DNA of 64,000 nucleotides from Fibrobacter sp. UWB2 (lineage in GTDB: Bacteria; Fibrobacterota; Fibrobacteria; Fibrobacterales; Fibrobacteraceae), in contig NZ_MWQK01000004.1 in the NCBI RefSeq assembly GCF_002210425.1, positions 186,001-250,000 on the forward strand, read 5' to 3'. Below are positions 59,323 to 63,015 of the stretch, piece by piece. Position 1 is the first letter of the stretch. Each line of letters opens with the position of its first letter. The notes under the pieces were generated by a model that saw nothing but the letters and a program-made list of their open reading frames with translations, ran no database searches and had not been told where the DNA came from. The translations under genes and the position numbers were made by a program.

Positions 59323-59424
59323 GATGTTTTGTCAATGAAATAGTTTTCTAAAATGGATACATTCCTACGTTTTCGAGGTAGTTTTATTATTACGTGTTGT
59401 TGCCATCAAAAATTAGGGGTTGTC

Positions 59425-61713
59425 ATGAATAAAGTTTCAACAGTAATTCGGGTATTTGCGTTAGCCATTGCCGCATCAACATTTTCTTTTGCGGGTGTAG
59501 GCATGGCCGATGGTGCTGCAAAATTTCTGGGCAACACGACCACTTTGGGCGAAATCCCTGATAATTTTGGCACCTACTGGAACCAGATTACTGCCGAAAA
59601 CGAATGCGTTTGGGGTCATGTTGAAAAGACACGCGGCGAATACGACTGGACGGGTTGCGACTTTGTCTATAACTGGGCTAAAAAGAATAAAGCCATTTTC
59701 TCGTTTCACACCCTGTTGTGGGGTTCGCAAAACCCGCAGTGGTTGATCAAACTTGATATTGACGAAACAAAAAAGGCTTGGACTGATTGGATTGATGCGG
59801 TTAAAGAACATTACCCCGACCTCGAAATGATTGAAGTGGTCAATGAGGCCGTCAAATCGGGCAACAACTACCACTCCAGTTTTACCTCTTCCAAACTGGT
59901 TGAGGCGCTTGGCGGCGATAACGGCAACTACGAATTTGTAGTGACGGCATTCAAGATGGCACGAGAACGCTGGCCAGAAGCCATCCTGATTTACAACGAT
60001 TACAATACCATCCAATGGCAAAAAATAGAGGGTATCGACCTTCTCAAGAAAATAAAGGCCCAGGGGGCGCCAGTTGACGCTTACGGAATGCAGTTCCACG
60101 AAACAACCGCACAAGGGACAGGCTATTATTGCCTAAATACATCCTTACTCAAACGCTCCCTTTACGAAGCACACGAACAGACAGGACTCCCCATATATAT
60201 TACTCAATACGATGTCGGTTCCATAGACGATGAATTTCAAAAAAAGTGCTACCAAGAACATCTCCCAATCCTGATGGAAACGGATTATGTTGCCGGCATA
60301 ACACTTTGGGGATACATTTATGGCAAAACTTGGCTTTCTTGTAACGGTTTAGAACAAGGTTGTTCCGGCCTTATCAAAGACGGAGTAGAACGCCCGGCAT
60401 TGACCTGGCTCAAGGAATATTTCAAGAATCCGAACGCCCGTTACGGCCATGGCATTGCCGATGGCGCATACAAGTTTCTTGGCAATATGATTGCCGACAA
60501 CCAAGAAATCCCCGAAGATTTTCAAGCATACTGGAACCAAGTTTCGCCCGAAAATGCATGCACGTGGACGGTCATCGAAAAAGAACGCGGCAAGTACGAT
60601 TGGACAGGCTGCGACCGTATCTACTATTGGGCGCAAAAAAACAATGTAAAGTTCAATTTCCGTAGCTTGCTTTGGGGAACCCATACCCCCAGCTGGCTCA
60701 ACAACCTTGATATAGACGAAACCAAGAAAGCCGTTGAAAACTGGTTCGACAAAGCTGCCATGCGTTACCCCGCACCTTACATGATCGAGGTGGTAAACGG
60801 AGGTTCCCGCGACAGCTATGGTCATTATCATTCTGGATTCGGGAGCGGCAATAAAATCATCGAAGCTCTCGGTGGCGACAATGATGACTACAAATTCATA
60901 GCCACGGCGTTCAAGATGGCTCGCAAGCGCTGGCCCAAAGCAATCCTAACCTTGAACGACTACGATGATTACGGCTGGAAAAACAATCAAGGCGCCGAAG
61001 TTATCAAAAAAATCCAGGAGCAGGGCGCACCCGTCGATGCGTACCAAATAATTTTCGCCCCACTCGTCCAAGGCTCCGGCCCGGAAGTGCAATGTTTTAG
61101 CACCGAACGCATCCAAAGCGGCATTCAGGAAATCTACGACAAAATAAAGCTCCCGTTGTTTATTACTGAATATAGCGTCGGCACAAACAACGACAGCCTC
61201 CAAAAAGCATGCTACTCCGAACATATTCCTCTCTTTATGGAATCGGAATACATTGCAGGCGTCAACCTTTGGGGATACCTTTACGAAACTGGAGCCGGAG
61301 TATGGGCCGACGAATCGAATCCCGGACTTATTAAGGACGGTGTAGACCGCCCTGCAATGACATGGCTCAAGGAATACTTCAAGGAGCATTGGGCGGAAAG
61401 CAAGAACATGTCGTACAATAGAGGCATCGAGAGACATCCGCTGGATTCGCTTGATTCAATCGCTTTGGAACCGCCGATTGCCATTGACGATAGAGGCGGC
61501 AAATTCGGCAACAAGATTCGCTTAGAGCAGAGCACGCTGCAAAATTACGACGTGTTTGACATACAAGGAGTGCGCCTCGGCAAGCTCTCGGCCTATGGCT
61601 TTAGCGATGCATCAACAAGGCTCAAGTCTGCCAGAACCGTAAAATCCTCGGGAATCTACTTCTTGCGCAACCGCACCACAGGCAAGATGCAAAGTGTGAG
61701 AGTCGCGAGGTAA
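59425..61713 (+). CDS. Secreted tandem GH10 xylanase-like protein with complementary active-site losses
   Basis: 762 aa. Signal peptide (residues 1-23), GH10 domain 1 (about 24-335), GH10 domain 2 (about 343-656), and a C-terminal basic tail with a type IX-sorting-like end (706-762: VFDIQGVRLG, SGIYFLRN). Domain 1 keeps the acid/base Glu (E141 in IEVVNEA) but has Gln at the nucleophile position (Q261 in YITQYDVG). Domain 2 has Gly at the acid/base position (G459 in IEVVNGG) but keeps the nucleophile Glu (E582 in FITEYSVG). The YNDYN-type motif remains in domain 1. Either the protein is a xylan-binding pseudoenzyme or it has unusual catalysis. The start follows an AGGGG ribosome-binding site. 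Confidence 0.87.
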   Translation: MNKVSTVIRVFALAIAASTFSFAGVGMADGAAKFLGNTTTLGEIPDNFGTYWNQITAENECVWGHVEKTRGEYDWTGCDFVYNWAKKNKAIFSFHTLLWGSQNPQWLIKLDIDETKKAWTDWIDAVKEHYPDLEMIEVVNEAVKSGNNYHSSFTSSKLVEALGGDNGNYEFVVTAFKMARERWPEAILIYNDYNTIQWQKIEGIDLLKKIKAQGAPVDAYGMQFHETTAQGTGYYCLNTSLLKRSLYEAHEQTGLPIYITQYDVGSIDDEFQKKCYQEHLPILMETDYVAGITLWGYIYGKTWLSCNGLEQGCSGLIKDGVERPALTWLKEYFKNPNARYGHGIADGAYKFLGNMIADNQEIPEDFQAYWNQVSPENACTWTVIEKERGKYDWTGCDRIYYWAQKNNVKFNFRSLLWGTHTPSWLNNLDIDETKKAVENWFDKAAMRYPAPYMIEVVNGGSRDSYGHYHSGFGSGNKIIEALGGDNDDYKFIATAFKMARKRWPKAILTLNDYDDYGWKNNQGAEVIKKIQEQGAPVDAYQIIFAPLVQGSGPEVQCFSTERIQSGIQEIYDKIKLPLFITEYSVGTNNDSLQKACYSEHIPLFMESEYIAGVNLWGYLYETGAGVWADESNPGLIKDGVDRPAMTWLKEYFKEHWAESKNMSYNRGIERHPLDSLDSIALEPPIAIDDRGGKFGNKIRLEQSTLQNYDVFDIQGVRLGKLSAYGFSDASTRLKSARTVKSSGIYFLRNRTTGKMQSVRVAR

Positions 61714-61776: not shown

Positions 61777-63015
61777 CTACTTCTTGACGCAACGGACGGG
61801 TTTGGCGGCTTTTTTATTGAGCGTATCAAAGTTGCCCGTTTTAGTGTTTAGGTCATAGTAATAGAACTTGCCTTTACTACCTGTAGCGCCACTCGTCCAA
61901 AATTCTGCTCGAGGGGGCCATCCATATTTGCCCTTAGCGTCGCGATTACCAGAAGCTTCGATTTGAAGTCGTTCAACGTTATCAACTATAGCAGGCAATT
62001 CGCTATCCGTAGGCAAGCGCCATCCATTGGGGCAAGCGCTTTGAGCTGCCTTCCAAGTGTAAAGACGGCCATATCTTTCACAATTGGCCCAGCCGTCATT
62101 GAAGCACCAGCTTTCTTTTGTCTTGAAATCCAAATTATGGGCAAACCACACAACGCCACCTATATTTGCAACCTTATACGACTTTGCATCGCGAGGGTCA
62201 TGGAACACAACATTTGCAGCCGCAAAACTATCATCCTTTACACAACGGACCGAATACCCAGCAGTCTTTCCATACCCAGGTTCCCCATACGACCACTTAT
62301 TAGACGCAAGCCCCCATTCAAAAGCTTCTTTTTCATCGTATTCCGAGGAAGTCCAAAAATCGCCGTTGTGAGTAAGCCCCCAAAATACGGTATCAGTACC
62401 ATCAAATCTATGGCTACCCGCAGCAAGCCCCGCAAAGCCGTATTCATCTTTAGCACCATAATAGATATTTGCAAGCAAGGCTTCTTTTTTTCTATCTACA
62501 GCATCTGCCAAGTTCTGCCACTCGGCCAATTCAGGGAAATGCCAACCTTCCGGGCAAACGCCACGAACGGGGTAAGTCGGAGTACATTTTTTCCCTTTGC
62601 CGCAGCCTTTTGCGTTATTCGAAATATTTCCGGCACTATCCATTGCGGCTGACCATGAGTACAGACGTCCATACTGAGCGCAATTGCGTTTATCATTATC
62701 ATAGCACCAGGAGTTTCCAATTAGTCCCGGAGCAGCAATGGTATCACCATAATTTAGGTTCTGTGCCATCCAGACCAAATCACCAATTTTCACAAATTTA
62801 TATGTAGCGCCGTCTCTGGAATCGACAAACGTATTTTGGGTTTGAGCAGCAGGCTTTACTTGAGAATTAGCTGGTGTTGGAACATCCTTTTCAGTTTGCT
62901 TTTGTTTACCCTTGCTTAATGATTTTAAAAGTCCTTTAAAAGATGACTTGGCGCAAGTCGGTTCAACAAGAAGCATCCCTGCCACAAGAGCCAGTACGAT
63001 TTTATTCAATCCCAT
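61777..63015 (-). CDS. Secreted protein with two FISUMP domains
   Basis: 412 aa. Signal peptide (MGLNKIVLALVAGMLLVEPTCA), a basic/polar linker, then two TIGR02147-unrelated FISUMP (TIGR02145) domains: about 66-264 (FVDSRDGATYKFVKIGDLVWMAQNL to VRCVKD) and about 275-412 (FHDPRDAKSYKVANIGGVVW to VRCVKK). Each has the GRLYSW or GRLYTW segment, CPEGW/CPNGW and FWTSS or FWTSG. The family is abundant and secreted in Fibrobacter; role probably in surface or adhesion functions. AAGGAG precedes the start and a TATATTTG box lies at 63038. Confidence 0.88.
   Translation of the reverse strand: MGLNKIVLALVAGMLLVEPTCAKSSFKGLLKSLSKGKQKQTEKDVPTPANSQVKPAAQTQNTFVDSRDGATYKFVKIGDLVWMAQNLNYGDTIAAPGLIGNSWCYDNDKRNCAQYGRLYSWSAAMDSAGNISNNAKGCGKGKKCTPTYPVRGVCPEGWHFPELAEWQNLADAVDRKKEALLANIYYGAKDEYGFAGLAAGSHRFDGTDTVFWGLTHNGDFWTSSEYDEKEAFEWGLASNKWSYGEPGYGKTAGYSVRCVKDDSFAAANVVFHDPRDAKSYKVANIGGVVWFAHNLDFKTKESWCFNDGWANCERYGRLYTWKAAQSACPNGWRLPTDSELPAIVDNVERLQIEASGNRDAKGKYGWPPRAEFWTSGATGSKGKFYYYDLNTKTGNFDTLNKKAAKPVRCVKK

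Follow-up and report, generated by a model that had tools for sequence, protein, structure and literature searches.

The window, as we call the whole 64,000-nucleotide stretch of Fibrobacter sp. UWB2 DNA analysed here, carries an open reading frame for a putative secreted protein in which two GH10 domains, here named D1 and D2, stand in tandem and are followed by a basic tail. The gene and the parts of its product are as follows.

59425-61713, forward strand: putative tandem GH10 pseudo-xylanase gene, an ORF of 762 aa whose start Met is aligned in 17/17 sequences
59425-59493, forward strand: signal peptide MNKVSTVIRVFALAIAASTFSFA, predicted from its sequence pattern
59503-60429, forward strand: D1, residues 27-335 (PF00331; PDB 4pmx, E 2.4e-49; model; Foldseek)
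60457-61380, forward strand: D2, residues 345-652 (second PF00331 stretch; own-genome search, E 8e-35; model)
61492-61710, forward strand: basic C-terminal tail (pI 11.3), probably of FPm-1/BTD type, with some resemblance to a T9SS type A sorting domain

Alignment of the start Met over the 17 sequences places the conserved start at 59425 and not at 59353, the start of the longer ORF; residues are numbered from this ATG, and codons were read directly from the DNA. The protein matches the GH10 profile PF00331 with 287 bits in two stretches, both halves above the cut-off, and barrel models cover both halves, in agreement with a sequence-only reading of this locus that had described two GH10 domains and a secreted product, the latter consistent with the predicted signal peptide. 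D1 and D2 align over 309 residues with 52% identity. The best PDB sequence match is 4pmx, XynB of Xanthomonas axonopodis pv. citri, and D1 is modelled confidently as a GH10 fold, with XynB, known with xylose and xylotriose, as the nearest structure in Foldseek. The AlphaFold2 model of D1 alone (pLDDT 86, pTM 0.89) forms a GH10 (beta/alpha)8 barrel with a TM of 0.82-0.86 to XynB, while the full-length model is of lower confidence (mean pLDDT 70); the Foldseek match lists consist mostly of GH10 structures. The C-terminal tail can be aligned with the tails of GH10 paralogues and is matched weakly by TIGR04183 (E 6.6e-4; 19.6 bits, under the cut-off of 23). Basic terminal domains of this type, BTD or FPm-1, have been described previously (PMC3079729, PMC6851124).

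Clan GH-A enzymes have their catalytic residues where strand beta4 ends and in strand beta7. When both domains were aligned with GH10s of known crystal structure (4pmx), the acid/base column contained E141 and G459, the nucleophile column Q261 and E582; in the AlphaFold2 model, the first two end strand beta4 and the other two lie within strand beta7, in two separate barrels.

59845-59847, forward strand: E141 (GAG), D1 acid/base Glu, kept in 17/17 full-length sequences
60205-60207, forward strand: Q261 (CAA), D1 nucleophile position, Gln in 17/17 (16 CAA, 1 CAG)
60799-60801, forward strand: G459 (GGA), D2 acid/base position, Gly in 16/17 and Glu in L018
61168-61170, forward strand: E582 (GAA), D2 nucleophile position, Glu in 17/17

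The sequence-only reading had named these four residues and proposed to check them by alignment with known GH10s and by structural modelling. Codons, alignment and model agree on each of them: all four land on the catalytic columns and at the beta4 end or in beta7 of the two barrels. The pair of Glu that an active GH10 holds within one barrel is present in neither domain (E141/Q261 in D1, G459/E582 in D2), and the tandem protein is very probably inactive as an enzyme.

We searched 111 genomes of the family, 80 of them Fibrobacter and some of these incomplete, and detected the full-length tandem gene in 17, all of one genus and the window genome among them. Thus 17/80 searched Fibrobacter genomes carry the gene, most having no detected copy. 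The 16 orthologues are 66-94% identical to the window protein, and the survey of Fibrobacter genomes suggested by the earlier reading showed Gln at the D1 site in 16/16 and Gly at the D2 site in 15/16, which rules out a sequencing or assembly error. The exception, L018 (genome G086), reads VVNEA in D2, yet has H80R and K47T and lacks the Q-x-H motif. Both domains are under purifying selection, with a median pairwise dN/dS of 0.12 for D1 and 0.16 for D2 (0.20 for the tail), similar to the 0.16 obtained for a paralogue whose catalytic pair is intact (L005 pairs). The catalytic loss is therefore conserved under selection, as in a pseudoglycosidase (17 sequences, dN/dS 0.12-0.16), and a recent pseudogene is ruled out by these ratios. 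A decaying gene or an assembly error would fit the situation in G083, which has a broken remnant only, and the restriction of the gene to 17 of the 80 Fibrobacter genomes, some incomplete; it is nevertheless extremely improbable, since the frame is open in 17 genomes with dN/dS well under 1, and for the window gene it is refuted by the conservation of the orthologues.

In a tree of 79 domain rows, the D1 sequences form one clade (bootstrap 99) and the D2 sequences another (bootstrap 100), both nested within a Fibrobacter subfamily whose single-domain GH10s carry this tail as well. The tandem gene lies beside queF and yhhQ (queuosine-precursor transporter) in several orthologues, a conserved neighbourhood that argues for vertical inheritance. 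No xylan gene cluster was found around the tandem gene, which has queF/yhhQ on one side and a FISUMP gene on the other; this downstream FISUMP protein (Fib_succ_major, TIGR02145) is encoded at 61777-63015 of the window on the reverse strand and is weakly matched near some orthologues. At the queF place of G083 lies the broken remnant, which contains D2 only and has no signal peptide (L065:4136-5218, G083:C18). As the gene is undetected in most searched Fibrobacter genomes and broken in G083, it appears to be dispensable. The D2 of L016 is a mosaic, identical to the window clade at residues ~400-480 and like L018 at ~490-680 (window protein numbering), pointing to recombination between species. 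Given this mosaic, the distribution of Glu and Gly at the D2 acid/base may reflect either two separate losses of the Glu or a single loss that was later reversed.

The GH10 cleft residues were mapped at 16 positions in D1 and 15 in D2 over the 17 sequences; in D2, W265 was scored at L615, next to the Trp that aligns with it, W616. Three positions concern the -1/-2 subsite, of which we take GH10 Lys47 to be a main contact.

59608-59610, forward strand: V62, D1 position of GH10 Lys47, V/N/T/L in orthologues
60562-60564, forward strand: T380, D2 position of GH10 Lys47, T/S in 17/17
60661-60663, forward strand: R413, D2 position of GH10 His80, R in 17/17

Lys47 and His80 do not occur together in either domain, D1 having V62 with the His kept as H95 and D2 having T380 and R413. 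D1 is invariant at 12/16 positions, the new Gln included. Equivalents of Glu43, Trp84, Asn126, Glu127, Asn169, Tyr171, Gln203, His205, Asp235, Trp265 and Trp273 occur in 17/17 sequences, and those of Asn44, His80 and Gln87 in 14-16 of 17 (N44 is Tyr in three sequences and H80 is Arg in one); the nucleophile and Lys47 are the positions that set D1 apart from active GH10s. D2, in contrast, is invariant at only 4/15 mapped positions: K47 (T/S), H80 (R) and D235 (S/N) are replaced in 17/17 sequences, Q203/H205 are lost, and W84 or the Asn preceding the acid/base is gone from roughly half the orthologues. Judged from these residues, D2 is a barrel without a working cleft, missing more than one Glu. 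The earlier statement that the halves are otherwise well conserved is thus nearly right for D1, apart from the loss of K47, and wrong for D2, whose cleft is broadly dismantled.

The same reading had seen complementary losses in the two halves and had offered either a xylan-binding pseudoenzyme pair or a new catalytic arrangement. With D2 lacking a working cleft the idea of complementary halves falls, and L018, which keeps the D2 acid/base Glu, is equally damaged elsewhere. An active site composed between the domains, with the acid/base from one half and the nucleophile from the other, accounts for the pattern of retained Glu only, whereas each residue sits within its own complete (beta/alpha)8 barrel, most D2 cleft residues are missing and L018 breaks the complementarity. 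Each barrel holds two of the four residues, and only a domain swap, of which there is no sign, would let one site use a residue of the other; a shared site, to which we give a negligible chance, is ruled out by the separate barrels, the D2 cleft loss and L018, and a new catalytic arrangement is likewise unsupported. The pseudoenzyme pair fits, since both halves are predicted to be inactive and secreted, with substitutions fixed in orthologues under purifying selection.

D1 could retain some catalysis by another route: its Gln might be deamidated to Glu, a nucleophile might be supplied from outside, or D1 might catalyse transfer rather than hydrolysis. The acid/base Glu of D1 does not vary, nor do the adjoining Asn and the Q-x-H motif, and from CAA to GAA is one codon step. 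Yet the Gln is fixed in 17/17 sequences, one of them with a CAG codon, the aligned motifs show no new carboxylate near the site (E226 stands where the intact-pair paralogues have Asp), and K47 is lost too, so that residual activity seems very unlikely.

The loss and variability of K47, with N44Y in 3/17 and H80R in 1/17 sequences, suggest that the -1/-2 subsite is eroding and that D1 might not bind xylan. It is conceivable, although we consider it unlikely, that the protein neither cuts nor binds sugar and that its barrels are reused as a protein-protein scaffold, an inhibitor-like decoy or a structural surface protein, the conservation of the D1 pocket then simply reflecting that of the barrel as a whole. 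Such a role would agree with the lost and variable K47 of D1, with a D2 that has a dismantled cleft and is still under purifying selection, and with the finding that the D1 pocket is not significantly more conserved than D1 as a whole (Fisher p 0.20). It agrees poorly with the polar and aromatic cleft residues of D1, which are nearly all invariant over 17 species while those of D2 have decayed in the same proteins. Given the Fisher value, retained binding by D1 is suggested by this contrast with D2, but unproven.

The loss of catalytic parts from a gene kept intact under selection in 17 species suggests that the product most likely holds wall sugars rather than cutting them. We favour, with moderate confidence, the view that it is a pseudo-xylanase secreted to the cell surface, with D1 binding xylan or some related beta-glycan and D2 providing a scaffold or a second surface for recognition. 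The lost residues, the conservation of these losses, the purifying selection and the layout of the domains are observed; the inactivity of the protein, its surface location and its ligand are what we infer. Binding of some carbohydrate by the tandem protein appears rather probable from its residues, and only D1 is a plausible binder of xylan. The signal peptide would export the protein, and the basic, FPm-1/BTD-like tail would target it to the cell surface or anchor it there. The D1 cleft, which keeps most sugar-binding residues and has Gln in place of the nucleophile Glu, may then hold a chain of xylan or a related beta-1,4-glycan, the Gln preventing formation of a glycosyl-enzyme; D2, its cleft chemistry gone, would be a structural partner or a second, changed recognition surface. 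On plant cell walls the whole protein would work as an adhesin or a targeting factor that does not hydrolyse its ligand, alongside the intact-site GH10 xylanases of the same genome. F. succinogenes hydrolyses xylan, cannot use the products, and adheres to its substrate without cellulosomes (PMC3079729); its dependence on adherence is documented (PMC3079729, PMC6851124), many of its hemicellulases carry FPm-1, and export through a T9SS has been suggested (PMC6851124).

The window genome encodes nine GH10 domains; two of these are short of a catalytic Glu and the cleft of a third (L007 type) is altered; the paralogues L001-L005 and L008 have both catalytic Glu and otherwise intact clefts. L088 (L088:244-2421, G030:C116), a GH10-CBM6-tail protein, has an independent nucleophile Gln (ISQYK) and H205 replaced by Arg; its nearest relative, L090 (G082), 76% identical, keeps the nucleophile Glu and has Lys at H205. 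L064:3610-4842 (reverse strand, G058:C2), a single GH10, has lost both Glu, the acid/base being replaced by Asp and the nucleophile by Gly, and adjoins a GH10 gene of the NVVSEA/ISEYN type (L064:2329-3588). A 422-aa NVVSEA group and a 425-aa DVVTEA group keep both Glu and have lost Asn126 and other cleft residues. Members of the latter are L007 of the window genome (G000:C2:682385-683371), L030, L032-L035, L038 and L075-L078; L007 and its relatives mostly read DVVTEA, with Thr for the Asn before the acid/base, K47 changed to Leu/Val and H80 to Asn/Arg, and their catalysis is probably altered or weak. From L088, L064 and these two groups, catalytic loss appears recurrent in the GH10 subfamily, and by the aligned residues catalytic positions have been lost more than once among Fibrobacter GH10s. 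Only tentatively, Fibrobacter may have repeatedly turned GH10 xylanases into lineage-specific surface xylan receptors, with the tandem protein, L088, the NVVSEA/ISEYN paralogues and L064 as possible examples; if so, an organism that has no cellulosomes and is unable to use xylose would employ GH10-derived receptors, without hydrolysis, as adhesins or targeting modules.

These observations touch on how Fibrobacter, a major rumen fibre degrader, grips plant cell walls without cellulosomes, for which a conserved, secreted and apparently catalytically broken tandem xylanase is a concrete, easily tested wall-binding candidate. They also indicate that Fibrobacter GH10 counts overstate xylanase numbers.

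Among known systems, XynB (4pmx/4pmy/4pn2) shares with D1 the fold, the motif positions and most cleft residues (33% identity, TM 0.82-0.86); unlike XynB, D1 has Gln as nucleophile and Val at K47, and D2 is without the acid/base and most cleft residues. In F. succinogenes S85, the GH10 xylanase cluster FSU_2292-2294 has the layout GH10-CBM6-BTD, and FSU_2293 and FSU_2294 are characterised xylanases (PMC3079729). By layout, this cluster probably corresponds to the three GH10-CBM6-BTD genes L003, L005 and L008 of the window genome, whose two nearest members are ~58-60% identical to D1 and whose tails are of the same kind as that of the tandem protein; these enzymes have a single GH10 with an intact catalytic pair and a CBM6, whereas the tandem protein has two GH10s with broken sites and no CBM. 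Another S85 gene, FSU_2851, an uncharacterised GH10 with BTD and no CBM (PMC3079729), may be an orthologue of the tandem gene or of the single-domain L007 type. XynC of F. succinogenes (FSU_0777) resembles the tandem protein in its duplicated xylanase domains in tandem and probably in its BTD; its domains are GH11 rather than GH10, two similar ones that the title of reference 34 in PMC3079729 describes as catalytic. The open-licence literature searched yielded no natural GH10 pseudoenzyme, while natural pseudoglycosidases that retain glycan binding are known (PMC7828330). Chitinase-like lectins (GH18) and klotho, from other GH families and other organisms, are glycosidase folds that have lost catalysis and been reused as binding proteins, and klotho is built of tandem GH1-like repeats, as the tandem protein is of tandem domains (PMC7828330, PMC3662789).
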